The notes beneath the pieces are model-generated. The model saw nothing but the letters and a program-made list of their open reading frames with translations. It did no database searches and was not told the origin of the DNA. A stretch of DNA of 32,240 nt. It comes from Nannocystineae bacterium (lineage in GTDB: Bacteria > Myxococcota_A > Polyangia > Haliangiales > Haliangiaceae). Positions 11,301 to 29,404 of the stretch are shown piece by piece. A program made the position numbers and the translations under genes. The stretch covers positions 1 through 32,240 of the forward strand of contig SLNH01000435.1 of assembly GCA_007133195.1 (NCBI GenBank), in the 5' to 3' direction. Within the stretch, counting starts at the first letter, position 1; each line of letters begins with the position of its first letter.

Positions 11301-11608
11301 GCGCGGATTTGCTCGGCTGTGAGCAGCGGCTCGTCCCACGCGCCCTCACCCAACCGCTCCTCCGTCCGCTGGCGCCAGTATTCCAGCTCGGCGTGCGCCG
11401 GCTCGACGCCCGGCATCCGCTCGTCCGCCCTCCGCGCCGCCGGACAGTCCTCCGTCCGCTCCCGCTCCACGGCCTCGGGCCGAAATTCGGGATCGCCCGG
11501 CGACGCGGAGTCGCGCTCGCCTCCGCTGCAGCCCGCGCTGGACGCGGCTAGCGGCACGGCGAGCGACGTGAAGACGAATGCCCATCTCAAAGCCTGAATT
11601 CGCCGCAC
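8378..11608 (-). CDS. NlpC/P60 lipoprotein with a second papain-like domain
   Basis: Large 1076-residue predicted envelope hydrolase. The signal peptide ends at SAGC (Cys27). Residues ~85-160 resemble the N-terminal stabilising domain of NlpC/P60 SH3b1-type proteins. SH3-like segments follow around PLDRNRCSTARSQ and SRLPVHDGGG. The first NlpC/P60 domain has C349 (GRDCSRYLLDVF), H409 (FPGHIMLYLG) and H426 (AIHALAEY), the expected Cys-His-His set for cutting peptidoglycan stem peptides. A beta-sandwich-like linker covers ~500-590. A second papain-like region has C672 (PDCAELPYTLRAYFAWK) and H779 (DPYGHLIVL), followed by ~270 residues I do not recognise. The start is GTG 11608 and lacks a clear ribosome site. 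Two catalytic domains on one chain is unusual. Confidence 0.88.
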   Translation of the reverse strand: MRRIQALRWAFVFTSLAVPLAASSAGCSGGERDSASPGDPEFRPEAVERERTEDCPAARRADERMPGVEPAHAELEYWRQRTEERLGEGAWDEPLLTAEQIRALNESMRVPREGFYGQVDLMDPLSRQEVVDQLFEREEYLATRLENGVYVAGDGGGDASVALSGLAEDMELDPEHRVALGDVPFYCAPTSERFFERDSVLPLDRNRCSTARSQEPIEVLGLASDDFLLARARYTWGFIPADAPLSPALSSEAAERFVRGPHVTTGDSAFRPGTAGAREVPPGSRLPVHDGGGQRQVYVAGERGVAAAPAPDGARDAERPFTRAAVLEEAFSLLGTPYGFGGEDGGRDCSRYLLDVFETFGIEMPRHSGWQADAGSFSIDVKDLDEDELLPVLDEAEEKGVVLLAFPGHIMLYLGREEDGRPMAIHALAEYLEPCDDGEGEITVAVDTVQVSDLELGRHTSRGALIERVERIAVLGAAPGVELAGVADVRPAAPVPEPAAGECTGGDRLLVTPAQPGAGEPVRIAAATESDPGAAELAIFGPTERDVPEPIRTGGPPYGWISEIEDPEPGSYTAVLGDGDQVYACRRFEVGERVGVEDRGPASGPIWNDRNEWDPAHEDLFSVFVERLFDYSIEEDLTWTDLNEVVADRERNLLYGYLGRGEEDDLNFVPDCAELPYTLRAYFAWKLELPFGYHGCSRARDNRPPQCGPGGTNEMSRSSVDRSDDVHAFQRFIHNRMRSIVHSSAGRTVPEYEDSDYYPVPLTREALRPGTTFIDPYGHLIVLTSWIPQTHEDYGILIGSDAQPDGTVGMRRFWRGSFLFIPETHSGGAGFKAFRPWRRDGGRLVKATNEELKSRPRVPHSLEQYEGSEDDFYDAMNALINPRPLDADSMMASLVDALDDEVARRVNAVENGEEFLRGRSFRPIDMPYDSDIFLTTGPWENYSTPSRDWRLLASMDTVAEFPDAVKRNPDQFQLSSDDVDAEVRALRERLDDQLASRSFTYERSDGSDWELTLKDVIDRIETFEMSWNPNDCPEVRWAAPEGSEERETCDRRAPAPQRERMADYRPWFTERSRPAR

Positions 11609-11758: not shown

Positions 11759-13252
11759 TCACTCCCGGAACATGCCGAAGCCCGGGGTGAGCACGTTATC
11801 GGGATCGTGGCGGCGCTTCGTGCGCACGAGAAAACCCCACGCGGGGCGAAAGTGCCGCCGCCACTCGCCCAGTGTGGTGTTCGGAACCGAGCTGATCACG
11901 TAGCGCGTCCCGCCCCGCGCCACGATTTCGTCGTGGATCCGGCGGTTGTCGGCGAGCATGGACGCCACGATGTCCGGGTCGTCGGGCGGAAACCGGAGCA
12001 GACTCAGGAAAAACGCCACCCGCTCCTTGGGAAGCCGAAAGAGCGGCCGCTTTACCGCGCGGGTGTCGATCGGGTAGACGAGCGCCAAGCCGGCCCCGAG
12101 ATCCTCCGGGGTGAGGCGCTCGGTAAAGGTCCGTATGTAGCTCGCCGCTTGCGAGCCCGGGATCCACATACTGAGCCACGGGTGCGGCGCGGCCCACAAG
12201 CTTTGGGCCTTGAGCACCGTCATCAGCGGATCCACGCGGAATTGCCATTCCCGGTAGGTGACGGGGAAGATCTCCGCCGACGGGCGATCGTCGCTTAGGC
12301 CCTCGAGGAGCTCGCCGGTGTCGGGCGCGTCGGGCGCGTCGAAATAGGCGGCCGCCTCGATCATGAAGCCCCACCCCGATCCCTCCTGGCGCGGAACGAC
12401 GTGCCCTTCCTGGTAGTCGAAGCGTCCGTCGTCGAGCAAAAGCGTCTGATCCCGGACGTAGGTCTCCGCGTCGCGGTAAAACAGATGAAAGATGAGGGCG
12501 TGGGTGCGCGCCGGGGCGAGGCGCACCTTCGCGCGCACGATGAGCGCCACCTGCCCACACCCGGCGAGGACGGCCTCGAACAGGCTGCGATGTTGGCTCG
12601 GCGAGCACACGAGGCGCTCGCCGGCGCCGGTCACCACCTCGAGCTCGTCGACCTGATCCGCCTGAACGCCGAGCCTCGGGCTGTGCCCGCCGACGCCGCC
12701 GACGCTCAGCGTACCGCCGACGGAAAGGTGGAGGTAATCCGTCATCACGGCCGGCGCCAGGCCGAACGCCTCCGCCGCGTCGAGAAGCTCCGACCAGCGG
12801 ACTCCAGGCCCCACGTCGGCAAGGCGCCGCTGCGGGTCGATGCCGTGGATCGTCGCGAGCGGCTTCACATCAATGACGATGCCCCCCTCGACCTGCGCCT
12901 GCCCGAAGCTCGAGTGCGACTCGCGCAGATCGCCCGTGCCCGACTGCCCATTCATCGCCACTTGGATACCGCGACGCCTGGCGAAGCGGACGATGGCGAC
13001 GACGTCGTCCACGGAGCCGGGTTTCAAGACCGCGACCGGCGCCCGAAAGCGCACGCGGCCAAAATCCTCGGTGAAGCGCTCGATGACATCAGGGTCCGTA
13101 TGGACCGTTCCGTCGAGGTCGGGGAGCTCGTCGAATGGCTCCTCCGCGTTTGCCTCGGTGACCCAAGCACGCCTCCCGGGGTGCCACCCGAGTACGAGCG
13201 CGCCTCCCGCGAGCGCGCCCAAGCCTTTGACGAAGGTGCGTCTACTCTGCAT
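11759..13252 (-). CDS. Tat-exported FAD-linked oxidoreductase, cytokinin-dehydrogenase-like
   Basis: Flavoenzyme of the FAD_binding_4/PCMH fold. The N-terminus carries a twin-arginine signal (SRRTFVKGLGALAGGALVLG), so the folded protein is probably exported. The FAD domain begins near VRFRAPVAVLKPGSVDDV. The segment ESHSSFGQAQVEGGIVIDV aligns with the GHS..GQA..PGGVVIDM block of cytokinin dehydrogenases, making H113 the candidate covalent FAD ligand. The stretch TDYLHLSVGGTLSVGGVGG, then ELEVVTGAGE and LFEAVLAGCGQ, matches the same family closely. The C-terminus ends NVLTPGFGMF, typical of the fold. ATG 13252 was chosen because the Tat motif follows directly; the frame extends to 13285. The real substrate may be another amine or alcohol. 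Confidence 0.88.
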   Translation of the reverse strand: MQSRRTFVKGLGALAGGALVLGWHPGRRAWVTEANAEEPFDELPDLDGTVHTDPDVIERFTEDFGRVRFRAPVAVLKPGSVDDVVAIVRFARRRGIQVAMNGQSGTGDLRESHSSFGQAQVEGGIVIDVKPLATIHGIDPQRRLADVGPGVRWSELLDAAEAFGLAPAVMTDYLHLSVGGTLSVGGVGGHSPRLGVQADQVDELEVVTGAGERLVCSPSQHRSLFEAVLAGCGQVALIVRAKVRLAPARTHALIFHLFYRDAETYVRDQTLLLDDGRFDYQEGHVVPRQEGSGWGFMIEAAAYFDAPDAPDTGELLEGLSDDRPSAEIFPVTYREWQFRVDPLMTVLKAQSLWAAPHPWLSMWIPGSQAASYIRTFTERLTPEDLGAGLALVYPIDTRAVKRPLFRLPKERVAFFLSLLRFPPDDPDIVASMLADNRRIHDEIVARGGTRYVISSVPNTTLGEWRRHFRPAWGFLVRTKRRHDPDNVLTPGFGMFRE

Positions 13253-13357: not shown

Positions 13358-13741
13358 TTATCCCACCACCCGCGCCACCGTCGCGAGCAGCTCCCCGAAG
13401 TCCACGGGCTTGGTCATGTAGGCATCGGCCCGAGCGGTCAATACCTGGTCCCAGTCCCCGACGCCCGTCATGACGATCACCGGAATCTTTGCCAGCTCCG
13501 GGTCTGTGAGCTGACGGTCGCGGAATTCCCAGCCGCTCATAACCGGCATCATCAGGTCGAGGAGGATCAGATCCGGCAGCGTTCCGCCGCTGCGGAGGTA
13601 CTGGAGGGCTTCGGCGCCGTGCTCCGCTCGCACCACCTCAAACCCCTCGGAGGGCAACAGGAGGCCGAGCATTTCGGTGATATCGCTATCGTCCTCGACG
13701 ATAAGCACGGTGCGCTCGCGAGATCCTGGGGCCTGCCTCAT
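13358..13741 (-). CDS. Single-domain response regulator (CheY-like)
   Basis: A stand-alone receiver of 127 residues with every key residue: acidic pair D17/D18 (IVEDDSD), phosphoacceptor D62 (LILLDLMMP), T92 (VIVMTGV) and K111 (YMTKPVDF). It has no output domain, so it would pass phosphate on or act by protein contact. Its ATG overlaps the stop of the hybrid kinase gene by four bases (ATGA, 13738-13741). The two are therefore translationally coupled, and this is the likely direct phosphotransfer partner of that kinase. The gene ends in a TAA within a small AT-rich patch. Confidence 0.95.
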   Translation of the reverse strand: MRQAPGSRERTVLIVEDDSDITEMLGLLLPSEGFEVVRAEHGAEALQYLRSGGTLPDLILLDLMMPVMSGWEFRDRQLTDPELAKIPVIVMTGVGDWDQVLTARADAYMTKPVDFGELLATVARVVG

Positions 13742-16700
13742 CGATCTGCGTGTCCGTGTCGCGTCGGCGCCGAAGGCGAGGCCGCCGGCCCGCGCATCGG
13801 TAGCTCCACTGTGAACGTGGTGTACACCCCGGGCTCGCTCCGAGGCGCGACGGAGCCGCCCAGGGCAGTCACGATTTGCTTGGTGATATACAGCCCGAGC
13901 CCGAGCCCTCCGTAGTGGGCGGCCGGCGCCGCACGCTGAAACCGATCGAAGATACTGTCCATCCGCTCGGGGAGAATGCCCACACCGTGATCCGTCACCT
14001 CGAGCGTAGCGCTGTGCGCACCGCCACTCAATTCGATCTCAATCGGCTCTCCGGCGCCGAACTTGAGGGCGTTTGCGACGAGATTCGTGACGACTTGCTC
14101 GAGGCGAGCCCGGTCCCAGCGGCCGACGACCGCCTCGCCTGTGCGTACGCTGATCGTGCAGCCGGCGCGCGCCGCCTGCGACTCGAAGCTATCCGCGACG
14201 TCTCGCACGACGTCGGCGAGATCCACATCCTCCACGTTGAGGTGCAGGCGCCCCGCGTGAATCCGCGACACGCTGAGGAGATCGTCCACGAGCTTCGAGA
14301 GCTGAGCCACCTGCCTGTCGAGGATCTGGAGGACGCGCCCTAGATCCCGGGTCCCTCCCTTTTCGATCGCCCCCTGCACCAACCCCTGAGCGACCAGGGT
14401 GAGCGACGTGAGCGGCGTCTTCAGCTCGTGGGAGGCGATGGACAAAAACTCATCCCGCACGCTCACGGCCCGCTGAGCCTGCGCGTAGAGGCGGGCGTTG
14501 TCCATGGCGAACGCCGCCCGGTGGGCGAGCTCGCGCGCCAAAATTCGGTCTCCTTCTCCGTAGGGACGGCCTCCCCCGCAGACCAGGACGCCGAGGCCCC
14601 TATCCCGCGCCGCGAGCGGCACGGACAGGATCGCTTGCGTGCCCGGCGGAAGATGGCTCCCGCGGCCGTCTCCCACGCCCCAAATGCTCGCCTCTCCCGA
14701 CGCCGCCACCTCGGCGATCGCTTCGCTGAGGAGGCTGTGCGCGGGCGGATCCAGCATGCTCCGATCCGCGAGGTGCGCCGGATGCAAAACCGCGCCCTGA
14801 ACGTCCGGATCCTCATCATTCGACGGATAGACGGCGCACCAGTCGGCGAGAAAGGGCACGGCGAGCTCGCCGATCCGGCTCACGATGGTTGTGTGGTCGA
14901 GCGAGCGCACGAGCGACGCGCTCGCGTCGGCGAGAAACCGCACCGACTGCTCGGCGCGCTTCCTGTCGGCGATCTCCACGTTCAGACCTTCGAACAGGAG
15001 GCTGTTTTCCAACGAGGTCGCGATCTGCGAGGACAGGAGGGTGAGCACGCGAACGCGCGCAGCCGGGAACGCGTTCGTGGTGAGCCGGTTTTCGAGGTAA
15101 AGCACGCCGGCCGGTCCGGTCTTGCGAGGGATCGGGAGCGCCAGGACCGAGTGCGCGCCACCCTCTCGCAAGGCCTGCTCCACGCCGAGCTCTCGGCCCT
15201 GCCACGGCTCACCGAAGACGATCGGCTCGTCCCGCTCGCGCACCTCGTGAGCGATCGCGCGTATTACATCCGGCGGCCGCTCGGCGGGCGCCGACGCCCG
15301 CTGGACGAGCGTTCCCCCGTCGTCGAGCAGGAGCGCGCCACCTGTCGCCCCTGCCACTTCCAGAGACAGCGTCATCAGCTTGTCGAGGAGGCGATCCAGA
15401 ACGACTTCGCTCGACAGCGTCTCGTAGGCCCGATGGAGCGCCATGAGGTCGAGGGTCGCGTGCTCGGCGCCCGCCTCGGCGCCCGCCCGCCACAGCGCCG
15501 GGCCGCCGGCGGCCACCTCGGGGAAGGCCTGCTCGAGCGCCGCGACCTTCGCGTTCGCGCCCCACTGGGCGTACCCCTCGAGCGCTGCGCTCGCGTAGAG
15601 CTTGGCGATCCGCCGCCTGCCCTGGCCGCGCCAAAACCGGGCCGCCGCCTCGTTGGCGATCGCCGCGTCCCGCGTGGCCTCGACCTGGTCCGCCGCGTCG
15701 ATCGCCTCGTCGTAGCGCGCCGCCGCCGCCGACACATCGCCGGCCAGGCGCGCGAGCTCCGCCAGAACGAGGAGGTATTTGTGGCGGTAATTCGTCGGCG
15801 CCCGATCCGCCCACAGCGCGAGCTCGCCGAGGCGCTCCTCGATCGCTTGGCAAAAGCGCCCCGCGTCCTCGCGCGCTGCGAGGGCCAGCGCGTGAAAGAA
15901 CCGGTGGTCCGCGAGCGGTGCGATGCCCCCGACAAGCCCCAGATGGCGCGCCGCGCGGTCGGCCATGGCGATCGCCTCATCGTAGCGGCCGGCCAAAAAC
16001 GCGACCTCGAGTCGCAATGTGTAATAGAGCGAGAGCGACAGCGGGTTGTCGCCCGACGAAGCGAGATAGATCGACTCGTCGAAGGTCTCGTCCTCGAAAT
16101 CGCCGAGCTCCCGCGTGCTCCCCTTGAGCGACCGGATCGCCTGGCGATACGCCAGGAGGTAGTCTTGCCCCGCCTTGGCCCGCACGCTCGCGGCGAGCCC
16201 GAAAAACGACTCGATCTCCGCCGAGATGTCCGCGAGGGGTTCGCCGCGGTGATAGCGCGCGACGACGACGGTCCCCGCCGCGTAGACGGCGAATTGGAGC
16301 TCGCCTCCCTCGAGCCCGCGCGAGACGGCGCGCCGCAGGATCGACACGCTCATCGACAGCGGCGCCCGCCAGTGGTTAATGAAGCAGCCAAAGACGTGCA
16401 GCGTGCGGCACTCCTGCACCGGGTCGTCGAACGAGCGGCTGAGCTCGGCGCCGGCACGTCCGAGCGCATGAGCGGTCTCGTAATCCCGCTTGAGGGCGCA
16501 CAGCGCCATCCCCAGGGTCGCGTACGCGAGCGGCGAGTACACGGCGTTGCCGTGCTCGAGGGATGTGTTGACCATGCGGGCCGCGATGAACTCCAAAAGC
16601 TGCGGATCGCTCACGTACGCGGGCGAGATGAGGTTGGCCAGAAGCTCCATGCGGGCGAGCCTCGTCCGGTCCTCCATCACAGGGAGACCGAGCAAGCCGG

Positions 16701-19329
16701 ATTCCTGGCCCCGCGCCAGGGAGGTGCGGACGGCGGCGAGCTCGCGCTCGGCCGCTCGCTCTCGATCGGCTGGGAGCTCGAGCCCGAGCGCGGCGAGCCC
16801 TTCGCGGCCGCGTTCGATCGCCGCCTCCATCTCGCCGCGCGTAGACGCGGCGATGACCTCGAGGTTGGCGAGGTCGGCGACCTCGAACCCCGAGCTCGCC
16901 AAAGAGCGGCCGTCGGCGATGAGCTGACTCGCTCGGTCGTCGTCGCCGCTCAAAAACGCGCACTCGGCCGCGTCGCGACTCAGCCGAAATGCGAGCTCAC
17001 GTCGATCCTCCAGGGGGCCGATGGTTCGCAACAGGTCGAGCCCGCGCGTTAGGTAGCCAAGGCCTGAGCCATACGCGTTGGAAGCCCGCGCCGCGTTACC
17101 GGCTTCCGCGCACTCGCGGGCGAGTTCGAGACGCTCGGCGTCGGAGTCGATGAGCGGCGCGCCGCGGCTCCCATGATCGACCACGTCGAAGATCGAAACG
17201 CGCCTCCCGCGCTCTCGCTGTTCGCGAAGGTGCCGTCCGATGACGAGGTGAATCTCCTGTCTACGGCGCTCGTCCGCGATCAGCTCGTAGGCCGCCTCAT
17301 GGACTTGATCGTGCGCGAACCGATAGGAGGCCGTCTCGGACGCGTCGCCGCGTCCGGCGAGCAGCCCCTCGCGGACCGGGGCCCAAAGCCGCCTCGCCAC
17401 GGGCTCTCGATCCTGGCCGGCGATCGCAGCGAGGTCGTCCAGATCGAAAGGGCCCTTGAAGCAGGCCGCCATGGCCAGCAGGTCTTGAATGTCGCCCGAA
17501 AGCCCCTTCATCGTGTCGAGCATGAGGCTGCTGACGTTTTCGGTCGCCTCGGCGCCGTCGACCCGGCCTTCGTCCCAGGTCCACGCGCCCCGCGACACGT
17601 CGAAGACGAGGGCGCCTTGGTCGTGGATCCGGCTCAAGAACCGCCGGACGAACAGCGCGTTGCCCGCGGTCTTGCGGAGGATCGAGCGCGCAAGCGGGGC
17701 CACCGCCTCCGGCGAGGTTTGCAGCGTATCGGCGAGGAGCGCGGTGATCGCGGCCTCGTCCAGGGCCGTGATCGGCAGGGTCTCCACGCGAGTCCCGGCG
17801 TCCGGCGCCGCGGCCAAAATTGCATCCACCCGCTCGCGCGCCGCGGCGTCGTCACCCCGGTAGGCGGCGATAAGGACGAGGGATACGGGGCTCTCGGGAT
17901 CGAGGCGTTCGGTCGCCAGGAGGTGCAAAAGGTCGAATGAAGACGCGTCCGCCCACTGCAAGTCGTCGAGAAACAAGACCAGGGGTCGAAAGCTCTCCGC
18001 GAGAGTGCGCACCAGGCTCACCAGCGTGCGGTGAAAGCGTTTTTCGCTCTCCACCGCCCCGAGGCTGGCCACGGGCTTTTGCGGCCCCGCGAGGTCCTCG
18101 AGCTCGGGAAGCAGGTCGAACAGCAGTTGTACGTTCCGCCCGATTTCCTCATCGAGGCTGTCACGCAGGCGGCGACGCTCGGCCTCCGAGGCGTCAAGGC
18201 ACTCGCGGAGGATCGGGCGGAGCGCCTGCGCCCAAAGCGCATAGGGGACGTCAGCGCCGGCCAGCGCCGCCTTGCCCGACGCCAAGGCGCTGCCGGCCGG
18301 CAGCAACTTGCCGAGCTCGAAAATCAGCGCTGACTTTCCCGCGCCGGCCGGCCCGAACACCGCGATGAGCGAGCGTCCCCCGTCCGCCGCCGCCCGAGCC
18401 ACGTTGTCGCGAAGCCTTTCGAGCTCGCGCTGGCGGCCGTACAGGCGCGCGGGGAGCGGCAGCGGCCGCTGGGTGTCGCCCCGCCCCAACTCGAAAGGCG
18501 GCAGGCTTTGCGCGCGCCGCCATTGCCGCAGGGCTTCTTCGAGGTCGAGCGCGAGCGCCGCAGCGCTCTGATAGCGACGCTCCGGCGCCTTGGCCAAAAG
18601 CTTCAAGACGAGCTCGGAGAGGAGCCGGGGGACTTTCGGGTTGATCGTGGTGGGCTCCACGGGTGCCCGCGCGAGGTGGGCGTGCGTCACCTCGACCGGG
18701 TCGGAGACGGCGAACGGCGGTGAGCCCGTGAGCACCTTGTAGAAGGTCGCGCCGAGGGAATACAGATCTGCCCGATGATCGACGCCCCGATCCATCCGGC
18801 CCGTCTGCTCCGGCGCGAGATAGTAGAGCTCGCCGGGGTGGGCCGCGGTCATCGCCTCCGGCGACAGGCCGAGAATCTGGGTAGCCGCGTCGAAATCGAC
18901 GAGCGTCGGCCGCCCATCCTCGCCCATCACCACGTTTTGCGGGCTGATTTCCCGATGGAGGACATGCTGGTCGTGGAGGGCGGCGACGATCTGCGCGAGC
19001 TCGACAAGGAGGGGGAGCGCCTGGCTGACCTCCAAGGGGCGATGGCGGAGGAATTCGTGGAGGTTTTGCCGGCCGGCGTCCGCGAGGACGAGCGCCGGGC
19101 CGGCGATCCCTTCGTCCAAGGCGAGCGCGTTGGAGATCCGCGGCCTGTGCGGCGAGCTGGCGACCTTGCAAAGGATCCCGTACTCGTGGCGGAGCGCCGC
19201 GCCCGCGTCTTTTCCGCTCGCGCCTTCGCGGACTGACTTAACCACCACCGGCGCACCGGCCGCTGTGTGGCAGCGTCGGACGACAAACCGCCAGCCTTCG
19301 TGGACCGTATCTCGGCACTCGTACTCCAC
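13738..19329 (-). CDS. Hybrid Ser/Thr kinase - AAA ATPase - GAF - histidine kinase
   Basis: A 1863-residue multidomain sensor. Residues ~1-280 are a protein-kinase fold with K31 (VVVKSV), an HRD-type loop reading HRE (H125-R126-E127), N132 and D145 (VDFDAA). An AAA/STAND-type ATPase follows with Walker A GPAGAGKS (K332) and Walker B LFLDDLQWAD. The middle (~650-1300) is an alpha-helical TPR-like region. Two GAF domains lie at about 1310-1455 and 1470-1620. The histidine kinase has H1634 (IASHELKTPL), an N box (NLVANALKFG) and G boxes (DHGVGI, GLGLGLYI). The start is GTG 19329 behind a gggagggg motif. This domain order is known in Myxococcota and cyanobacteria. The Glu in place of the catalytic Asp suggests weak or absent Ser/Thr kinase activity. 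Confidence 0.95.
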   Translation of the reverse strand: MEYECRDTVHEGWRFVVRRCHTAAGAPVVVKSVREGASGKDAGAALRHEYGILCKVASSPHRPRISNALALDEGIAGPALVLADAGRQNLHEFLRHRPLEVSQALPLLVELAQIVAALHDQHVLHREISPQNVVMGEDGRPTLVDFDAATQILGLSPEAMTAAHPGELYYLAPEQTGRMDRGVDHRADLYSLGATFYKVLTGSPPFAVSDPVEVTHAHLARAPVEPTTINPKVPRLLSELVLKLLAKAPERRYQSAAALALDLEEALRQWRRAQSLPPFELGRGDTQRPLPLPARLYGRQRELERLRDNVARAAADGGRSLIAVFGPAGAGKSALIFELGKLLPAGSALASGKAALAGADVPYALWAQALRPILRECLDASEAERRRLRDSLDEEIGRNVQLLFDLLPELEDLAGPQKPVASLGAVESEKRFHRTLVSLVRTLAESFRPLVLFLDDLQWADASSFDLLHLLATERLDPESPVSLVLIAAYRGDDAAARERVDAILAAAPDAGTRVETLPITALDEAAITALLADTLQTSPEAVAPLARSILRKTAGNALFVRRFLSRIHDQGALVFDVSRGAWTWDEGRVDGAEATENVSSLMLDTMKGLSGDIQDLLAMAACFKGPFDLDDLAAIAGQDREPVARRLWAPVREGLLAGRGDASETASYRFAHDQVHEAAYELIADERRRQEIHLVIGRHLREQRERGRRVSIFDVVDHGSRGAPLIDSDAERLELARECAEAGNAARASNAYGSGLGYLTRGLDLLRTIGPLEDRRELAFRLSRDAAECAFLSGDDDRASQLIADGRSLASSGFEVADLANLEVIAASTRGEMEAAIERGREGLAALGLELPADRERAAERELAAVRTSLARGQESGLLGLPVMEDRTRLARMELLANLISPAYVSDPQLLEFIAARMVNTSLEHGNAVYSPLAYATLGMALCALKRDYETAHALGRAGAELSRSFDDPVQECRTLHVFGCFINHWRAPLSMSVSILRRAVSRGLEGGELQFAVYAAGTVVVARYHRGEPLADISAEIESFFGLAASVRAKAGQDYLLAYRQAIRSLKGSTRELGDFEDETFDESIYLASSGDNPLSLSLYYTLRLEVAFLAGRYDEAIAMADRAARHLGLVGGIAPLADHRFFHALALAAREDAGRFCQAIEERLGELALWADRAPTNYRHKYLLVLAELARLAGDVSAAAARYDEAIDAADQVEATRDAAIANEAAARFWRGQGRRRIAKLYASAALEGYAQWGANAKVAALEQAFPEVAAGGPALWRAGAEAGAEHATLDLMALHRAYETLSSEVVLDRLLDKLMTLSLEVAGATGGALLLDDGGTLVQRASAPAERPPDVIRAIAHEVRERDEPIVFGEPWQGRELGVEQALREGGAHSVLALPIPRKTGPAGVLYLENRLTTNAFPAARVRVLTLLSSQIATSLENSLLFEGLNVEIADRKRAEQSVRFLADASASLVRSLDHTTIVSRIGELAVPFLADWCAVYPSNDEDPDVQGAVLHPAHLADRSMLDPPAHSLLSEAIAEVAASGEASIWGVGDGRGSHLPPGTQAILSVPLAARDRGLGVLVCGGGRPYGEGDRILARELAHRAAFAMDNARLYAQAQRAVSVRDEFLSIASHELKTPLTSLTLVAQGLVQGAIEKGGTRDLGRVLQILDRQVAQLSKLVDDLLSVSRIHAGRLHLNVEDVDLADVVRDVADSFESQAARAGCTISVRTGEAVVGRWDRARLEQVVTNLVANALKFGAGEPIEIELSGGAHSATLEVTDHGVGILPERMDSIFDRFQRAAPAAHYGGLGLGLYITKQIVTALGGSVAPRSEPGVYTTFTVELPMRGPAASPSAPTRHGHADR

Positions 19330-20951: not shown

Positions 20952-21878
20952 GTGCCCGGCCTTGCGGGCGCCACCGGCGGAGGCCCGACCCGGCGCGGCG
21001 CGACATACATGCTCTCGGCGGCCCTGGCCGCGGCCATCTACCTCATCGCCTTCCAGTCGGCGCGCGAGGCCCCGCGCGAGAGCTTCGTGCTGGCCGTGCT
21101 CGCCATCGGGGCTGCCATCAACGTCGCGTGGCTCTTTCTCCTCGGCCGGCAAACCGGCGCCCTCAGCCCGCCGCCGCGCCGCGAGGCCGTCGTGACCGGC
21201 GCCCTGGCCGTTTGCACCGTCGCGGGTAACTACTTCGTGGGCCGGGCCAGCGAAACCCTCGACAGCGGCGCCATCGCCGCCCTGTTCCAGACCGAAATCT
21301 TCTTCGTGGCCGCCGCCGGCTGGCTGCTGCTCGGCGAGCGCCCCCGTCCGTCCGTGGCGCTGGGCGCCGTCGTGGCCACCGCCGGCGTGACCGTGGCCCG
21401 AGCACCGGGAGCCGACGCCGCCTGGGATCCCGCAGGCGTAGGGTTCGCGCTCGCGAGCTCGCTGGCGGCAGCCCTTTTGCTCGTGATCGTCCGCGGGACC
21501 GCCGCCAACATCCACCTCGAGCGCGTCAACGCCTACCGCCTGGTCGCGGCCGCGGCCCTCGCCCTGCTCCTGCCCGGCGCAGCCACCGGGCTGGGCGCCC
21601 TGACCCCGGCCGACTGGGGCGCCGCTGCCGTGGCGGCGGCGGCCGGGCCAGTCCTGAGCCGGCTCTTGCAGATGTACGCGGTGCGCGAGCTACCCGCCGT
21701 GAGCGTCAAGCTCGGTCTACTCACCACCGCGGTGTTCGCCTACGCCCTTCAGGCCCTCGTGTTCGGCCGGCTCCCAACAGGCGTGGAGATCGCCGGCGCC
21801 AGCCTCATCCTGGCCGGGGTGAGTATCCCCCAGCTCGCCCAATGGACGCTCCCGGGAGGCCGCCGCGGCGCGCCGTAA
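20952..21878 (+). CDS. DMT superfamily transporter (EamA family)
   Basis: Inner-membrane protein with about ten hydrophobic segments in two EamA-type halves, for example MLSAALAAAIYLIAFQ, FVLAVLAIGAAINVAWLFLL, then later LVAAAALALLLPGA and GVEIAGASLILAGVSI. The conserved helix with SGAIAALFQTEIFF followed by LLGERP is typical of EamA drug/metabolite exporters. The substrate cannot be predicted from the sequence. The start is taken as GTG 20952, and ATG 21009 is an equally reasonable start directly before the first membrane segment. There is no good Shine-Dalgarno at either. Confidence 0.85.
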   Translation: MPGLAGATGGGPTRRGATYMLSAALAAAIYLIAFQSAREAPRESFVLAVLAIGAAINVAWLFLLGRQTGALSPPPRREAVVTGALAVCTVAGNYFVGRASETLDSGAIAALFQTEIFFVAAAGWLLLGERPRPSVALGAVVATAGVTVARAPGADAAWDPAGVGFALASSLAAALLLVIVRGTAANIHLERVNAYRLVAAAALALLLPGAATGLGALTPADWGAAAVAAAAGPVLSRLLQMYAVRELPAVSVKLGLLTTAVFAYALQALVFGRLPTGVEIAGASLILAGVSIPQLAQWTLPGGRRGAP

Positions 21879-21905: not shown

Positions 21906-21934
21906 TTGGGCACTGGCGGCGATGCCGATACAAT
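21906..21934 (+). promoter_or_regulatory. Candidate sigma-70 promoter of the L,D-transpeptidase operon
   Basis: TTGGGC at 21906-21911 and TACAAT at 21929-21934 are separated by 17 bases. The -10 matches consensus at 5 of 6 and the -35 at 3 of 6. Transcription would start near 21941, within about 10 bases of the ATG at 21949 (or at GTG 21943), and no ribosome site is visible. The gap to the preceding transporter gene is only 70 bases. Confidence 0.4.
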
Positions 21935-21948
21935 GCCATCCCGTGACC

Positions 21949-23478
21949 ATGAAGAAGCTCCTTCGCACGCTTTGGCTACTCCCGCCGTCCCTGCTCATCG
22001 CGACGGGCTGCACTGACGAGGATGCTGGTCAAAAGGGCGCCGAGCGCGCCTCCGAGAACCCGGGCTCGGAACCGGACACGGCGGCGCCCGGCGAAGCCTC
22101 GGAGAACGGCGAAGCCTCCGCCGCGCCCGACGGCGCCGACAGTCTCGACAGCGCCGCCGCTCGCGGCGAGCCCGGCCAATACCACCTGCCCGGCCCAACG
22201 CTCGCAGGCTGGGAGCCCAGCTACTACACCGACCTCGAGCCCCTCGAGGAACCTCCCGACGGCTATTCTCACCTCGCGGTGATCACCGGGCGCCAGGTGG
22301 GGCTGTTTAGCGAGCCCGGGGACCGCTTCCCCTCCGGCATCGCCCGGACCGGTGGGCGCATACCCGCGAATCCGGCGTCGGGGCCGGGCTGTGACGGCGG
22401 CGAGTGGTACGAGGTCAAAGGCGGCGCGTATCTCTGCTCGTCGGTCGGCGTCCACATGACGGAGGAGCGATTTACCGACGAGTCGTTCCACGACGCGACC
22501 ACCGCGCTGCAGCGCGCCCGGCTGCCTCGCGTCGGCCAACCGAACCTCTTTCAGCACGGCGTCGCAGAAGACGGCGCGCCGTTCCTAAACGACATCCCGT
22601 CCGAGGCACAAATCGAACAGATGCGCGAGGGCGACGTCCCCGACGAGCTCGTGCGCCTGCACGCCGACGGCGCCTATGTCCTCGCGCTCGCCGACGAAGT
22701 CGAAGCGCACGGAGAGCGCTTTTTCCAAACCATTTACGGCTCGTATATCCGCGAGAGCGACGTCGATCCGCGCCCGCTGTCCCCGATGCACGGCGAGTGG
22801 CTCGAGGACGTGGAGGAGGATTTGCCGCTGGCGTTCTCCTACCGCGAGTCCGAGCTTTACTGCCTAGGCGACGAGGCCGCCGAGCCCTGCGGCAGCGTCG
22901 CCAAGCACGCGCGATTCCGGCCGCGGGGCGAGATCGAGCTGGGCGGCCAACAATTCGTCCTAGCCACCGACGAGCTCGGGGTCCCTCGCGAAGATCTCCG
23001 CATCGCCACATCCGTCGATCGACCCTCGGATTTCGGCGCGGACGAAAAGTGGTTCCACATCGATCTCGACGAGCAGATGCTCCTCGCCTACGAGGGCGAC
23101 GAGCCCGTGTTTGCCACGCTCATCTCGAGCGGCCGCGAAGGCTTCCACACCCCCACTGGATCGTACCGCGTCGATCGCAAATACCATTCGAAGACGATGC
23201 GCGGCACCGGCGGCGACGGACGCCCCTATCAGGTGCAGGAGGTGCCTTGGGCGCTTTACTACGACGGCAACTACGCCGCTCACGGCGCCTACTGGCACGA
23301 AAACTTCGGCACGCCCCAGAGCCACGGCTGTGTAAACATCCCGCCGCTCGACGCGCGTTGGTTGTATTACTGGGGCGATCTCGAGGTGCCGGAGGGCTGG
23401 CACGCGATTAAGCACGCGTCGGGCACTGGCATCCACGTCACGGGCGAGACACCGCCGGACGAGGAGGACCGCGCGTGA
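21949..23478 (+). CDS. L,D-transpeptidase (YkuD) lipoprotein
   Basis: Periplasmic enzyme expected to form 3-3 peptidoglycan cross-links or to attach proteins to peptidoglycan. The signal peptide (MKKLLRTLWLLPPSLLIATGC) ends at lipidated Cys21. An acidic Gly/Ala/Glu linker covers ~25-85. An SH3-like segment may lie at ~105-170 (GRQVGLFSEPG to GGAYLCSS). The YkuD domain is C-terminal, from ~365, with H445 (HGAYWHENFG) and the signature SHGCVNI carrying H459 and nucleophile C461. At 509 residues it is longer than most, due to ~200 uncharacterised residues before YkuD. The frame extends to 21922, but ATG 21949 begins the signal peptide. The stop overlaps the next gene by four bases. Confidence 0.93.
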   Translation: MKKLLRTLWLLPPSLLIATGCTDEDAGQKGAERASENPGSEPDTAAPGEASENGEASAAPDGADSLDSAAARGEPGQYHLPGPTLAGWEPSYYTDLEPLEEPPDGYSHLAVITGRQVGLFSEPGDRFPSGIARTGGRIPANPASGPGCDGGEWYEVKGGAYLCSSVGVHMTEERFTDESFHDATTALQRARLPRVGQPNLFQHGVAEDGAPFLNDIPSEAQIEQMREGDVPDELVRLHADGAYVLALADEVEAHGERFFQTIYGSYIRESDVDPRPLSPMHGEWLEDVEEDLPLAFSYRESELYCLGDEAAEPCGSVAKHARFRPRGEIELGGQQFVLATDELGVPREDLRIATSVDRPSDFGADEKWFHIDLDEQMLLAYEGDEPVFATLISSGREGFHTPTGSYRVDRKYHSKTMRGTGGDGRPYQVQEVPWALYYDGNYAAHGAYWHENFGTPQSHGCVNIPPLDARWLYYWGDLEVPEGWHAIKHASGTGIHVTGETPPDEEDRA

Positions 23479-24395
23479 GCGCGCGCGCCGCGTCGGGAGA
23501 TCGCCAGGTGCTGTCCCGTGCCGCGCTCCCCCTGCTCGAGCGGGGCGATCAGCTCCTCGAGCGCGCGTTCGAGGTCGTGGGCGACGCCTCCCGGACCGTC
23601 AAGTTCCTGCGCGCCCGCGCCCACTTCGACGCGCGCCCCGACGACGTGTACGTGGCGAGCTATCCGCGCTCCGGCACGACCTGGACACAGCTCATCACCT
23701 ACATGCTCGTGAGCGGCGCAACGGACTTTCACTTTCGCCACCTCGCCGACGTCTCGCCGTGGTGGGAGCGCTCGCTCGCCCGCCGCAACGACGCGGTAGC
23801 GGAGATGCGGGCGATGGCCAGCCCGCGTGTGCTGAAGTCTCACCTTCCCTACCGATGGCTCCCGCGCGGGGCGCGCTACCTATACGTGTGGCGCGAGCCC
23901 GAGGACGTGGCCGTGAGCTACTATCACCTCTACCGCCGGTTTCTCGCGTTCGACGGCGACTTCGAGACTTTCTTCGATCGGTTCGTCCGGGGCGATGTGC
24001 AGTACAAGTCGTGGTTTCGGCACGTCGCCGGGTGGCGCGCCCGCGAGGGCGACCCGCGGATTCTGTTTATCCCCTACGAGGAGATGGTGGCCGACCCGCG
24101 CGCATGGGTGCGGCGCATAGCCGATTTTTTGGACATCGAGGCATCCGACGAGCGCTGCGACGAGGTCGCTCGGCAGAGCGACTTCAAAGCGATGAAGGCG
24201 GCCGAGGAGAAGTTCGATTTCAAAAGCGAGCTGCTCCACGAGCTAGACATCCGCGACGGCTCGTTCCTCCGCCAGGGGCGAGTGACACGCGGCGACGCGC
24301 TCTCTGCCGACCAGCGCCACACCCTCGAGCGCGCGCGGTCGCGCCGGGTGCCGCTCGCCGACGTGGAGTGGCGCCTCCCATCGTTTCTGCATTGA
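23475..24395 (+). CDS. PAPS-dependent sulfotransferase
   Basis: Cytosolic-type Sulfotransfer_1 enzyme that moves a sulfonate from PAPS to a hydroxyl or amine. The 5'-phosphosulfate loop is SYPRSGTTW (residues 62-70), the likely catalytic base is H123 (LKSHLPY), and the 3'-phosphate site is WREPEDVAVS (R140, S148). The C-terminal family motif is present as RQGRVTRGD. At 306 residues it has the normal length. No signal peptide is visible. Its GTG start overlaps the L,D-transpeptidase stop (GTGA, 23475-23478), so it is translationally coupled. The acceptor molecule is unknown; an envelope or secondary metabolite is possible from the context. Confidence 0.93.
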   Translation: MSARAASGDRQVLSRAALPLLERGDQLLERAFEVVGDASRTVKFLRARAHFDARPDDVYVASYPRSGTTWTQLITYMLVSGATDFHFRHLADVSPWWERSLARRNDAVAEMRAMASPRVLKSHLPYRWLPRGARYLYVWREPEDVAVSYYHLYRRFLAFDGDFETFFDRFVRGDVQYKSWFRHVAGWRAREGDPRILFIPYEEMVADPRAWVRRIADFLDIEASDERCDEVARQSDFKAMKAAEEKFDFKSELLHELDIRDGSFLRQGRVTRGDALSADQRHTLERARSRRVPLADVEWRLPSFLH

Positions 24396-25357
24396 TGCGA
24401 GTTGCGCCCGCCATATCGGCCCCCGCGCGGTGGCACGAGCGCGTCTTGGAGCGCGCTCGCCAGCACCCGCTCATCGACACGCGCGCGACGCTCGAGGGGC
24501 TCCGGCGCGCGGGCCGCGCTCCGAAACCCGGTGCGGTGTACCTGGGCGTGGGGCTGTGCGGCCGCAGCGAGCTGTCGAAGGCAGTCCCGCTCGACCTCCT
24601 CGGCCTGGTCCTGCCCGCCGAGGCCGTCCGCCGAGCCGCCGGCGCGCGCGAGCTCGTCGTCCTGATCGCCGACCGGCACGCCCGCGAGAGCGGGTTTTGT
24701 GCCTCTCGGGTCGAGGAACGCAGCGCCGCCGTCCACGCTGCGCTCGCCCGGATCGGCCGGCAGTGCGGCCTGCCGTCGCTCTCGGTGGTGCGCGCCACGG
24801 AGATCAGCGACGAGAAGGCCTACCGCGATGGGCTCGCGACCGTGCGGCGCGTGCTCGGGCCCGCGCCCGACGATTACACGGCGCGCCAGCTCGCCGACGC
24901 ACTGTACTTGGAGCAGCGCGCCGGCGGGCTCCTCAAGGTGGGCTGGGTGCTGCGCGGCGCCGATCCCGCGCGCCGCCGCGACGAGGTCGCCTTCGACACC
25001 GCGCTCAGGCGGGTGGTCGGTGACCGGGTGCCGTTCGTGTACTGCAAACCCGGGCGTTCGCTGGCCGCCGGCGCGCCCCGCGTACCGCCCTACATTGTCA
25101 CGCAGCCAAAATCTCGGCTCTGCCTGGACGGCGCCGAGGACCCGGTGGCCAAACTGAGGGCGGCCCGGCGCACCTCGCCCCGTGACGCGATCGAAGGCTA
25201 CCGGCGCTACCTGCGCGCCCTCGTTTACACCTTCAACCGCGACATCGACCGCCTGCCGCGCGGCCCGCTCGAAGACCGCGCGGCGGCGCTCATCAGGCTC
25301 CTGGCACCGCGGGCGGAGCTCGCGGAGCCGCTCGTTTTGGAGCGCGACGCTTCGTAG
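24395..25357 (+). CDS. Unknown protein, weak class I aaRS-like (HUP) pattern
   Basis: A 320-residue protein I cannot assign to a family. Its ATG shares base 24395 with the sulfotransferase stop (TGATG), so it is coupled to that gene. Several blocks look like a class I aminoacyl-tRNA-synthetase catalytic fold, especially TyrRS/TrpRS types: an early strand-turn YLGVGLCGRSELSK, then ELVVLIADRHA (compare the ADxHA segment), ARQLADALYLEQ followed by KVGWVLRG, and a late PKSRLCLDG where a KMSKS loop would sit. The HIGH histidines are not evident and no tRNA-binding domain is seen. No signal peptide or membrane segment is visible. This relationship is a visual impression, not a search result. Confidence 0.8.
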   Translation: MRVAPAISAPARWHERVLERARQHPLIDTRATLEGLRRAGRAPKPGAVYLGVGLCGRSELSKAVPLDLLGLVLPAEAVRRAAGARELVVLIADRHARESGFCASRVEERSAAVHAALARIGRQCGLPSLSVVRATEISDEKAYRDGLATVRRVLGPAPDDYTARQLADALYLEQRAGGLLKVGWVLRGADPARRRDEVAFDTALRRVVGDRVPFVYCKPGRSLAAGAPRVPPYIVTQPKSRLCLDGAEDPVAKLRAARRTSPRDAIEGYRRYLRALVYTFNRDIDRLPRGPLEDRAAALIRLLAPRAELAEPLVLERDAS

Positions 25358-26733: not shown

Positions 26734-27867
26734 CTAGCGACACGCGCTCGCCAGCGGCGCCAGCCCTGGCTGAAGCGGGCGCGCGTGCCCCGACAGCGCC
26801 CCCCGGCCAAACAGGCGCTCCCATACGAGCGCGTCGGCGACGCCCACCGAGACGTGCATTTGCAAGAGCACCCACCCGCGTCGGGGCCGGTTTTCGAACA
26901 AGAACGTGCCGCGAAGATCGACGCCCACCGGGTCCCCGGCGCGAGCTGCGCCGGGCACGCGCACCTTCAGGTTGGACATCATCCACGCCATGTCACCCGA
27001 GTCCGCCACCTCGATCAGGTGGTCGCCGATGCGGACCTCGGCGTCCTCGCCTTCGCCCGCCCCGAACGCCGAAGCGACCGTAGGCGCGTCGCGGATGTCC
27101 CGCCCCGTGTACTCGTGGCGAGGTCCGGGCAGGATCACGAGCGCGTCGGCCGACTCGGCCACGTGCCTCTCACGGTAGTGCGGCCCGACCTCGCCGGCCA
27201 CGACACGCTGAGCGATGCGCCGAAGCTCCCTCGCCGGTCCCCCCGCGTCGTAGGCCGTTTGAAACGACGGCGCCGCCGGGAGCTCATCCGAAGCCGCCCG
27301 GGCCAGGATCTCGTCGATGTGCATGGGGTAGGACTGATGCTCCATGGCGAGCACCCATGTATCCACGTCCCGGGTGTAGACGCCCGTCACCCGTAGCGGG
27401 ATCGCCGCTTCGCGCTCCCCGCGGGTGATGCGATAGCTAACCTCGTCGAAGGCCCAGCCGACGTGCCCGCTCGCCGACAGGTGCGTGTCCAAATTTCTGG
27501 ACAGCATGCGCAGTCTCTCGCCGGCGAACAGGCGCTTGTCCTCGTACAGGGACGGCGGAGAGATCCCGGCGACCACGTGATCTGAAGACGCCCCGAAAAT
27601 GCCCACGGCGCGGCCCGGCGCGACGCGATCGGCGAAGGCGTCGAGATTGCCGAGCTCGAGGAGCGCGTAGTTTTCGAGCACAGTGGCCTCCAAATCGCGG
27701 CTAAGCCGCGCGGCGTCGGCCTTCGGCGTGGGCACGATCTCCCCGGGCGAGGGCGCCGCGTCCTCGGGCACCCGTCCGGCGCAGGCGGCGAGGCCGACCC
27801 CGACCAACACCAAGCCCAAAACCACGACGCCGCGGCGCGCGCGACATCGCGCATCGACGCCGATCAC
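26734..27867 (-). CDS. Lipoprotein with two NTF2/SnoaL-like domains
   Basis: A 377-residue predicted lipoprotein. A hydrophobic signal (VVVLGLVLVGVGLAAC) ends at Cys29. Two tandem NTF2/SnoaL-like alpha+beta barrels follow. The first (~50-200) opens with a helix (ATVLENYALLELGNLDAF) and closes with VDTWVLAMEHQSYPM. The second (~215-360) includes ADALVILPGPRHEY and ends RRGWVLLQMHVSVGV. The W..(x)..H.S ending of each is typical of SnoaL_3 or DUF4440-like domains, which bind small molecules and sometimes act as enzymes. GTG 27867 overlaps the stop of the MobA-like gene (GTGA) and has a ggaggg site, so the gene is the last in that operon. The ligand is unknown. Confidence 0.82.
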   Translation of the reverse strand: MIGVDARCRARRGVVVLGLVLVGVGLAACAGRVPEDAAPSPGEIVPTPKADAARLSRDLEATVLENYALLELGNLDAFADRVAPGRAVGIFGASSDHVVAGISPPSLYEDKRLFAGERLRMLSRNLDTHLSASGHVGWAFDEVSYRITRGEREAAIPLRVTGVYTRDVDTWVLAMEHQSYPMHIDEILARAASDELPAAPSFQTAYDAGGPARELRRIAQRVVAGEVGPHYRERHVAESADALVILPGPRHEYTGRDIRDAPTVASAFGAGEGEDAEVRIGDHLIEVADSGDMAWMMSNLKVRVPGAARAGDPVGVDLRGTFLFENRPRRGWVLLQMHVSVGVADALVWERLFGRGALSGHARPLQPGLAPLASACR

Positions 27868-28472
27868 CACGGGCCCTCCGCGCGCGCCAGCCGTGCGCGA
27901 TCCCGCGGGGTGTCGATATCGCACACGGCGCCCGGATCGGCTACGTCGAGGACGCGCCTTCGCGCGCCGCGTTCGCGCAGCACGGTCCTGGCGCCTGCGG
28001 GCGCCGCTTCGCATCTCGCCAGCTCTCCCCACAGCGCGCGCCCCACGGCCACCGGGTGACCGCCACGGCCCACATACCGCGGAACGACCACGCCTCCCTC
28101 CTCCGCCGCACCTGCGAGGCAGGCCAGGGTTTCGGCCCACACGAGGGCGTGATCCACGGGCCACAAAAACGCCGCCCGCGCGGCGAACGCGGCACGGGCG
28201 AACGCAAAGCCCGACGCCACCGACGAGGCCATGCCCCGCTCGGCGCTCGGGTTGACCACGACCGCAAGGCCCAGCCGGCCCGCCTCCGCCTCGGTGGCGG
28301 CGCGGTGACGGCCGCCGGTGACGACGACGATCTCGGCACCCGCGGCGCGCCTGAACCGACTGGCGATGGTCTCCAAAAACGTCGCCCCGTCAGGACCGCG
28401 CAAGACCGCCTTGGGCACCTCGCCCAAGCGCCGCCCGCGTCCCGCCGCCAGAATCACGGCCCCGAGCCTCAC
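27864..28472 (-). CDS. MobA-like nucleotidyltransferase (molybdenum cofactor type)
   Basis: A 202-residue NTP transferase. The nucleotide-binding opening AVILAAGRGRRLGEVPK is typical of MobA/MocA proteins, which attach GMP or CMP to molybdopterin. Other family features are EIVVVTGGRH, the metal-binding WPVDHALV segment (PxDxP type in relatives), and the late GHPVAVG block. It starts at GTG 28472, overlapping the XdhC-like stop by four bases (GTGA), with a gaaggggg site upstream. Pairing with XdhC suggests it prepares the MCD form of the cofactor for a xanthine dehydrogenase family enzyme. No such enzyme is in the window. Other sugar or phosphate nucleotidyltransferase roles cannot be excluded. 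Confidence 0.88.
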   Translation of the reverse strand: MRLGAVILAAGRGRRLGEVPKAVLRGPDGATFLETIASRFRRAAGAEIVVVTGGRHRAATEAEAGRLGLAVVVNPSAERGMASSVASGFAFARAAFAARAAFLWPVDHALVWAETLACLAGAAEEGGVVVPRYVGRGGHPVAVGRALWGELARCEAAPAGARTVLRERGARRRVLDVADPGAVCDIDTPRDRARLARAEGPW

Positions 28473-29404
28473 CCCGGCCCCCTTCGCCGCACGGCGACGA
28501 GCTCGGCGACCACGGAGACCGCGATCTCCGCGGGCGTCTCGGCGCCGATGGCGAGCCCGATCGGGCCGCGAACGCGCGCCCACCTTTCGGGCGTCGCGAT
28601 GCCCTTGGCCTCGAGGCGGCGCCGAAACCGCTCGAGCTTTCCGCGGCTTCCGATCACGCCGAGATAGGACAGCCCCTCGGCGGGCAAAAGCCTCTCCAAG
28701 AGCCGCTGGTCGATCGCGTGATCGCGGGTGGCGATGACCACGTAGTCGCCGGCGCCGAGATCGCCCGCCGCGCGCTCCACGTCGGCGAGCTCGAGTGACG
28801 CCACGGTCGCCGCGGCCCACGGCAAAGGCTCGGACAGGGCGCCGCCTTCGCCGTCGTCACAGGCCAGGATCTCGAACTCGACGGCCGCGGCCGCGGCGCC
28901 GATGGCGCGTCCGACGTGCCCGCAGCCGAGGAGCACGAGACGCTCGGCCGGGACGATGGGTTCGACGAACGCCGCGCCCTCGCGCCGCGGCGCCGCGGGC
29001 GGAGCGAGTCCGCGCACCCGCTTTTCCCCGCTCTCCAGGTCGGTGACGAGAACGCCCCGCCCGCGCGCCTTCGTGAGCTCGACCGCCTCGGCGACGGCCT
29101 CTCGGCACCGCGAAGCCGGCTCGATGTAAAGCTCCATGCTGCCCCCGCAGCACATCGCGAGATCGCGCACGAGGTGGTGCGTCACGAGGCGCGGCGCGCC
29201 GGACGCGGCCACGGCCGCGGCCTCACGCGACACCTCGAGCTCGACGCGACCACCGCCGATCGTGCCTTCGGCGCGCCCGTGCGCATCCACGATCATCTTG
29301 GCGCCCGGGTGCCTGGGCGTAGACCCCGACGTTCCCACCACCGTGACGAGCGCAACCTCGGCCCCTTGCGCCAACCGCTCGAGCGCGCGGGCGAGCACCT
29401 GCAT
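28469..29404 (-). CDS. XdhC/CoxI-family molybdoenzyme maturation protein
   Basis: XdhC-type proteins bind the molybdenum cofactor, help sulfurate it and deliver it to xanthine dehydrogenase family enzymes. The N-terminal XdhC/CoxI domain has GSTPRHPGAKM, GTIGGGRVE and the Cys motif AMCCGGSMELYIEP. The C-terminal Rossmann domain has LLGCGHVGRAIG, then YVVIATRDHAID and YLGVIGSRGK. At 311 residues it is a normal full-length form. ATG 29404 (MQVLARALE) was preferred over the longer frame to 29476, whose first 24 residues lack homology. It is the first gene of a three-gene run with GTGA overlaps. It diverges from the histidine kinase gene. Confidence 0.92.
   Translation of the reverse strand: MQVLARALERLAQGAEVALVTVVGTSGSTPRHPGAKMIVDAHGRAEGTIGGGRVELEVSREAAAVAASGAPRLVTHHLVRDLAMCCGGSMELYIEPASRCREAVAEAVELTKARGRGVLVTDLESGEKRVRGLAPPAAPRREGAAFVEPIVPAERLVLLGCGHVGRAIGAAAAAVEFEILACDDGEGGALSEPLPWAAATVASLELADVERAAGDLGAGDYVVIATRDHAIDQRLLERLLPAEGLSYLGVIGSRGKLERFRRRLEAKGIATPERWARVRGPIGLAIGAETPAEIAVSVVAELVAVRRRGPG

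Follow-up and report, generated by a model that had tools for sequence, protein, structure and literature searches.

A patchily distributed myxobacterial gene cluster pairing a synthetase-like protein with a sulfotransferase, usually beside an L,D-transpeptidase

Contig SLNH01000435.1 of the Nannocystineae bacterium assembly GCA_007133195.1 carries three consecutive genes, which encode a YkuD L,D-transpeptidase, a 3'-phosphoadenosine 5'-phosphosulfate (PAPS)-dependent sulfotransferase (ST) and a protein resembling the class Ic aminoacyl-tRNA synthetases (aaRSs), here called aaRSL. This trio is the local copy of a real but patchy myxobacterial cluster, the most constant core of which is the pair of aaRSL and ST, with the L,D-transpeptidase as the usual third partner. 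aaRSL is a previously undescribed protein family occurring in scattered myxobacterial lineages. The linkage of the genes is very probably functional. The source assembly, a metagenome-assembled genome (MAG) with 99.2% completeness and 4.4% contamination, comprises 5.6 Mb in 496 contigs, and the window, the whole stretch of 32,240 nucleotides analysed here, is one complete contig. The genes and their junctions are as follows.

21949–23478, + strand: gene 1, YkuD L,D-transpeptidase, 509 aa (PF03734, E 5e-19, residues 367–475)
23475–24395, + strand: gene 2, PAPS-dependent sulfotransferase, 306 aa (PF00685, E 6e-50)
24395–25357, + strand: gene 3, class Ic aaRS-like protein of an undescribed family, 320 aa (AlphaFold2 and Foldseek)
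23475–23478, + strand: GTGA, 4-bp overlap of the gene 1 stop (TGA) with the gene 2 start (GTG at 23475)
24393–24397, + strand: TGATG, gene 2 stop and gene 3 start, with base 24395 common to TGA and ATG

The original prediction, made from the sequence alone, had described this gene order with a four-base and a one-base overlap, and the coordinates of the open reading frames (ORFs) match it exactly. All three ORFs are intact and score as coding by codon usage, and a purpose-written coding-potential gene caller chooses the same frames. Overlaps of four bases and one base are common in bacterial operons and prove little alone. The short overlaps are thus ordinary; the gene content is unusual.

Distribution and linkage

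Relatives of aaRSL have been found in 25 of 318 genomes of the class Polyangia, distributed patchily over eight families (labelled f1, f7, f10, f15, f20, f70, f72 and f74). In f1, the family of the source genome, the window is the sole carrier among about 30 genomes. A sample of the phylum searched with the aaRSL alignment yielded relatives only in this class, and no match was obtained in plasmids, phages or viral contigs. Where a relative of gene 3 sits in a named record, the label is in most cases that of a Myxococcales or Deltaproteobacteria MAG. Weak matches from the phylum (L013–L017, E 1e-5 to 5e-3) and the three weakest from the class (L067–L069) were discarded, as they lay in other frames, belonged to unrelated proteins or were too weak.

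Members of the ST subfamily (E ≤ 1e-48) were detected in 21 of 308 genomes, and all 21 carry aaRSL at a distance of no more than 3 kb, determined by comparison of gene coordinates. Nine of 12 genomes checked hold no ST relative at E ≤ 1e-5, and the best distant match reaches 3.5e-27. Across six lineages the divergences of ST and aaRSL correlate with each other (Mantel r 0.64, P 0.02), and the divergence of YkuD correlates with neither. A YkuD gene adjoins the pair in six of the eight families (f1, f7, f10, f15, f20 and f74), with varying order and strand. This recurrence of the three gene kinds side by side exceeds chance, the probability of the YkuD adjacency being about 1e-6 under a deliberately generous null that assumes 50 YkuD-like genes in 5,000.

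The search for the trio in other genomes, as the original prediction had proposed, therefore places it well beyond one genome, and ST, far from being routinely found apart from gene 3, is never away from it in the 21 genomes. The tight co-translation that had also been claimed does not hold as a general trait. The ST and aaRSL genes point towards each other in f7 and f15 and away from each other in f74, and because neither the gene order nor the overlaps are conserved in other families, co-translation is particular to the window genome. YkuD was also considered as an obligate core member and rejected, since it is a multicopy family (284 of 308 genomes carry it) with a mixed tree and with paralogues at a distance from the pair. 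Because of this copy number, and because the triad copies do not group together as a clade, the firm core is taken to be aaRSL and ST, with murein enzymes repeatedly associated.

In f15, nearly all of the members checked that have a long enough contig retain the row M23–aaRSL–ST–TauE–YkuD, in which M23 is a murein hydrolase and TauE an exporter. Neither the window genome nor genome G466 has the M23 partner, which is accordingly regarded as accessory. Beyond the row, several f15 members carry a PgsB-like gene, CapC and a third pgs-like gene. These poly-gamma-glutamate-like synthesis genes, the first of them PgsB/Mur-ligase-like, lie at L024:11072–13999 and also on L019, L020, L021, L025 and L032; the presence of amino-acid polymer genes beside an aaRS-like protein in the f15 genus is suggestive. 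In the single-contig f15 assembly G495 (L076, L119), YkuD and a TauE fragment are located about 380 kb from the pair, which keeps only an M23 remnant, reflecting either a rearrangement or an assembly error. In genome G432, aaRSL (L075:4688–5707, − strand) stands alone among cysteine-rich lipoprotein genes, with neither ST nor YkuD on the 7.6-kb contig, which may indicate a stand-alone role or an incomplete genome.

The synthetase-like protein

The sequence of gene 3 has no Pfam or NCBIfam match and nothing relevant among PDB sequences, and 15 aligned relatives likewise gave no convincing match in Pfam or NCBIfam. An AlphaFold2 model based on a 10-sequence alignment reached pLDDT 81 and pTM 0.84, and the 50 PDB matches listed for it by Foldseek are natural or engineered tyrosyl- or tryptophanyl-tRNA synthetases (TyrRS, TrpRS; E 1.1e-7 to 2.9e-5, probability 1.00). 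A second model, of the G466 relative (16-sequence alignment, pLDDT 85, pTM 0.87), found synthetases of the TyrRS/TrpRS kind in all of its first 50 places (best E 4e-8, probability 1.00). Both predicted models thus have the class Ic Rossmann catalytic fold, which bears out the class I aaRS-like pattern originally ascribed to gene 3. The relation to the synthetases is a remote one, as TM-scores against TyrRS/TrpRS are about 0.4–0.6 and identities 10–18%. In BFVD, a cyclodileucine synthase appears at rank 7 (E 5e-3).

Motifs were analysed in an alignment of 12 diverse members, which contains 29 invariant columns. The principal elements in the window are these.

24575–24595, + strand: SKAVPLD, in the HIGH position of TyrRS/TrpRS; family pattern [ST]x[GA][VL]PxD with P and D invariant
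24668–24682, + strand: ADRHA, end of the second core strand; A92, D93 and A96 invariant
24875–24898, + strand: YTARQLAD, corresponding to Y-x3-[QE]-x2-[DQ], the amino-acid-binding motif of TyrRS/TrpRS; Y161 invariant
24935–24946, + strand: KVGW, after the amino-acid-binding helix; family pattern K[VIL]GW with K, G and W invariant
25088–25156, + strand: PY...R[LI]...E....KL, in the expected KMSKS region; KMSKS absent, flanking pattern invariant

Neither HIGH nor KMSKS is present in any of the 12 members, and [ST]x[GA][VL] replaces HIGH in 11 of them. The Y-x3-Q-x2-D motif of TyrRS/TrpRS has an established role in substrate binding, and its counterpart Y-x3-[QE]-x2-[DQ] is retained in all members tested. 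Within it, the tyrosine is invariant and the second pocket residue is Gln in 10 members and Glu in two; for comparison, the pair in the cyclodipeptide synthases (CDPSs) is Y178/E182 of AlbC. At position 168 the proteins of the window, G288 and G432 have Asp, as in TyrRS, and the other members have Gln. The host genome also encodes intact TyrRS and TrpRS of its own, with HIGH in TyrRS, HVGN in TrpRS, and KMGKT/KMSKS. The suggestion that the aaRS-like protein itself activates an amino acid has become doubtful, since the loss of both ATP motifs makes self-activation less likely. The aaRSL proteins are basic (isoelectric point 8.6–11.1), as expected of a tRNA binder.

Comparison with known systems

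With TyrRS and TrpRS (class Ic aaRSs, PF00579), aaRSL shares the predicted fold over most of the chain and a Y-x3-Q-x2-D-type pocket motif followed by a V-G strand. It differs from them in lacking HIGH, KMSKS and any detectable sequence similarity, and in being an extra copy alongside the intact TyrRS and TrpRS of the same genome. CDPSs (PF16715) are class Ic-like enzymes that have lost HIGH and gained a conserved serine, and in which Y178 and E182 hold the amino acid (PMC2922099, PMC7566563). aaRSL resembles them in its class Ic-like Rossmann fold, in the loss of HIGH and KMSKS and, in part, in the retained Y-x3-[E/Q]; it is longer, with about 295–340 aa against about 225–260 aa. Seven aligned CDPSs have an invariant Ser and Y-x3-E. 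This comparison set was obtained with an AlbC query and was limited to database records annotated as CDPS. No CDPS was found in 284 genomes of the phylum, but the control of that search was equally matchless. aaRSL is not assigned to the TyrRS/TrpRS or CDPS families, as profile comparisons with them were negative. By the logic of its motifs, aaRSL looks to work like a CDPS, though it is not classed as one.

According to a published survey, sulfotransferases rank with the most frequent biosynthetic domains in the neighbourhood of CDPS genes (PMC5767969), which makes the pairing of aaRSL with ST chemically sensible. Paralogous aaRS-like proteins in peptide-metabolite clusters, namely CDPS and MetRS-like ones (PMC2922099), also combine an aaRS fold used outside translation with adjoining tailoring enzymes. 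aaRSL differs from these in being of TyrRS/TrpRS type with a sulfotransferase partner, a word that does not occur in PMC2922099.

The sulfotransferase and the L,D-transpeptidase

The two partner enzymes belong to the classes originally read from their sequences, as indicated by the Pfam matches given above and by the following motifs.

23658–23684, + strand: SYPRSGTTW, 5'-phosphosulfate loop of ST; [ST]YPRSG[TN]T retained in 7/7 aligned STs
23835–23849, + strand: KSHLP of ST; K[ST]HLP in 7/7 aligned STs
23281–23331, + strand: catalytic HGAYWHENFGTPQSHGC of the L,D-transpeptidase, with Cys461; intact HGxYWH...SHGC site

The nearest PDB chains of ST are cytosolic SULTs, the phenol- and amine-type SULTs being its nearest solved relatives. 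The PAPS loop, K[ST]HLP and the overall domain are common to ST and the cytosolic SULT-type enzymes (PF00685); ST differs in that the Lys of the PAPS loop is replaced by Arg and in that its subfamily occurs only beside aaRSL in the genomes searched. The histidine of KSHLP is presumably the catalytic base, as in SULTs. APS kinase, which supplies PAPS, was found in all six genomes tested.

The PDB relatives of gene 1 are L,D-transpeptidases, and HGAYWHxxFGxxxSHGC is retained in every YkuD aligned from related clusters. The protein has an N-terminal signal with a probable lipobox (Cys21 at 22009–22011). It possesses the catalytic domain of the YkuD L,D-transpeptidases (PF03734) with SHGC, and differs from them in that its multicopy myxobacterial subgroup has an N-terminal region of about 360 residues.

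Proposed function and alternatives

The preferred reading is a tentative one, given as a whole somewhat less than an even chance: a CDPS-like or amino-acid-binding aaRSL would feed ST, and the product would be used at the envelope. The ligand bound by aaRSL through its Y-x3-[Q/E]-x2-[D/Q] pocket would be either an amino acid or an aminoacyl-tRNA, held by its amino-acid end. Having lost the ATP motifs and retained the pocket, aaRSL would make no aminoacyl adenylate and would most likely take an amino acid already activated on tRNA, in the manner of CDPSs, and transfer it to another amine to give an aminoacyl or dipeptide product. ST could then transfer the sulfate of PAPS to a hydroxyl or amine of this product, tyrosine being a plausible target. 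Once exported, the product may be used at the envelope, where the co-located L,D-transpeptidase, together with a murein hydrolase in some lineages, might attach it or adjust the surrounding wall. In a further, distinctly unlikely reading, aaRSL would represent a new class of aminoacyl-transfer enzymes that depends on tRNA, needs no ATP and evolved from TyrRS/TrpRS independently of CDPSs; together with ST it would make a sulfated unit, an amino acid or a dipeptide, for the L,D-transpeptidase to anchor in peptidoglycan. A full-text literature search found no report of a sulfated murein modification of such kind, and the view that no described pathway joins the three gene kinds agrees with the open-access literature, where no linking paper was found.

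Several results weigh against the preferred reading. Profile comparison by hhalign detects no kinship of aaRSL with bacterial TyrRS or TrpRS (P 0.44 and 0.21) or with CDPSs (PF16715, P 0.32, no Pfam match); in the absence of significant sequence homology to any of the three, the assignment of aaRSL rests on predicted structure and motifs. The position of the CDPS-type catalytic Ser holds Ser in 10 of 12 members, Thr in one and a shifted Ser in one, and is thus not strictly invariant, and aaRSL, unlike CDPSs, retains C-terminal helices. In f70 and f72, neither ST nor YkuD is present on the aaRSL contig. The triad YkuD copies are not monophyletic, in a poorly supported tree with long branches, and the envelope step is for this reason the weakest part of the proposal.

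Alternatively, aaRSL may be independent of tRNA, binding a free amino acid (tyrosine in the types of the window, G288 and G432) and passing it to ST or coupling it to a small partner, for example to give a sulfotyrosine derivative. In TyrRS the retained motif forms the site for free tyrosine, the distribution of Asp and Gln at position 168 fits such a role, and the nearest solved relatives of ST are of phenol and amine type. However, the lost ATP motifs leave no obvious energy source for coupling, sulfotransferases normally do not need a separate substrate binder and aaRSL is strongly basic; this reading is held to be rather unlikely. The loss of both ATP motifs in all members would also suit a catalytically dead TyrRS/TrpRS paralogue serving as a tRNA sensor or as a scaffold that controls ST or envelope genes, and regulatory dead aaRS paralogues are generally known. 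This is improbable, as the 29 invariant columns, many of them charged or aromatic and situated in predicted active-site strands and loops, resemble an active site.

The pair could also be a small secondary-metabolite locus unrelated to peptidoglycan, in which YkuD and M23 shield the wall of the producer or merely travel along. Patchy distribution fits transferred biosynthetic loci, and permeases lie beside the cluster (TauE in f15, EamA in the window), but the recurrence of two kinds of murein enzyme in separate lineages speaks against this explanation, which is considered unlikely. That a common YkuD gene, a sulfotransferase and an orphan gene are ordinary neighbours without a shared pathway is already disfavoured and seems most improbable. 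The wide occurrence of multicopy YkuD, the unconserved order and strands of the window and the failure of the adjoining YkuD copies to form a single clade would agree with it, whereas the ST–aaRSL linkage in 21 of 21 genomes and the YkuD adjacency in six of eight families, improbable even under the generous null, would not.

Locus context

A candidate promoter precedes the trio.

21907–21934, + strand: sigma-70-like promoter candidate TGGGCA-16-TACAAT, a consensus match at 9/12

One such site was found, against 0.2 expected by chance from shuffles. An alternative in-frame ATG for gene 1 is located at 21922; ATG 21949 is favoured because the promoter-like site sits just upstream. An EamA gene (21009–21878) could be the first gene of the operon, being separated by a gap of only 70 bp, but this gap holds the promoter-like site; no EamA gene has been seen beside the aaRSL–ST pair outside the window genome. 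The window contains no PADLOC match to a defence system, and neither RNA elements nor tRNAs were found in it.

Other genes of the window include a mostly unrecognised NlpC/P60-type protein of 1059 aa (8378–11557, − strand), a full-length, 41% identical relative of which is encoded some 3 kb away from a YkuD gene in genome G441 (L108:4492–7842). A fusion of 1863 aa (13738–19329, − strand) joins a Ser/Thr kinase, AAA, two GAF domains and a histidine kinase, and its gene is followed by a response-regulator-like gene (13358–13708). The gene at 11759–13252 (− strand) encodes a TAT-signal FAD oxidase with a substrate domain of the cytokinin-dehydrogenase type (PF09265, 6e-28). A MobA-like nucleotidyltransferase (27864–29404, − strand) adjoins XdhC and is likely to form with it a maturation pair for a molybdenum hydroxylase.

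Significance

CDPSs are the chief known case in which class Ic synthetases have been put to use outside translation. If the reading proposed for aaRSL is true, a second family, unrelated as far as sequence comparison shows, has undergone the same losses of HIGH and KMSKS and kept the same pocket, and this route would have been taken more than once. The exclusive pairing with one ST subfamily provides a direct hint to the chemistry of aaRSL. Genes for L,D-transpeptidases and murein hydrolases recur beside the pair and direct attention to the envelope. The cluster thus suggests an unknown myxobacterial pathway in which a sulfated amino-acid product acts at the cell envelope.

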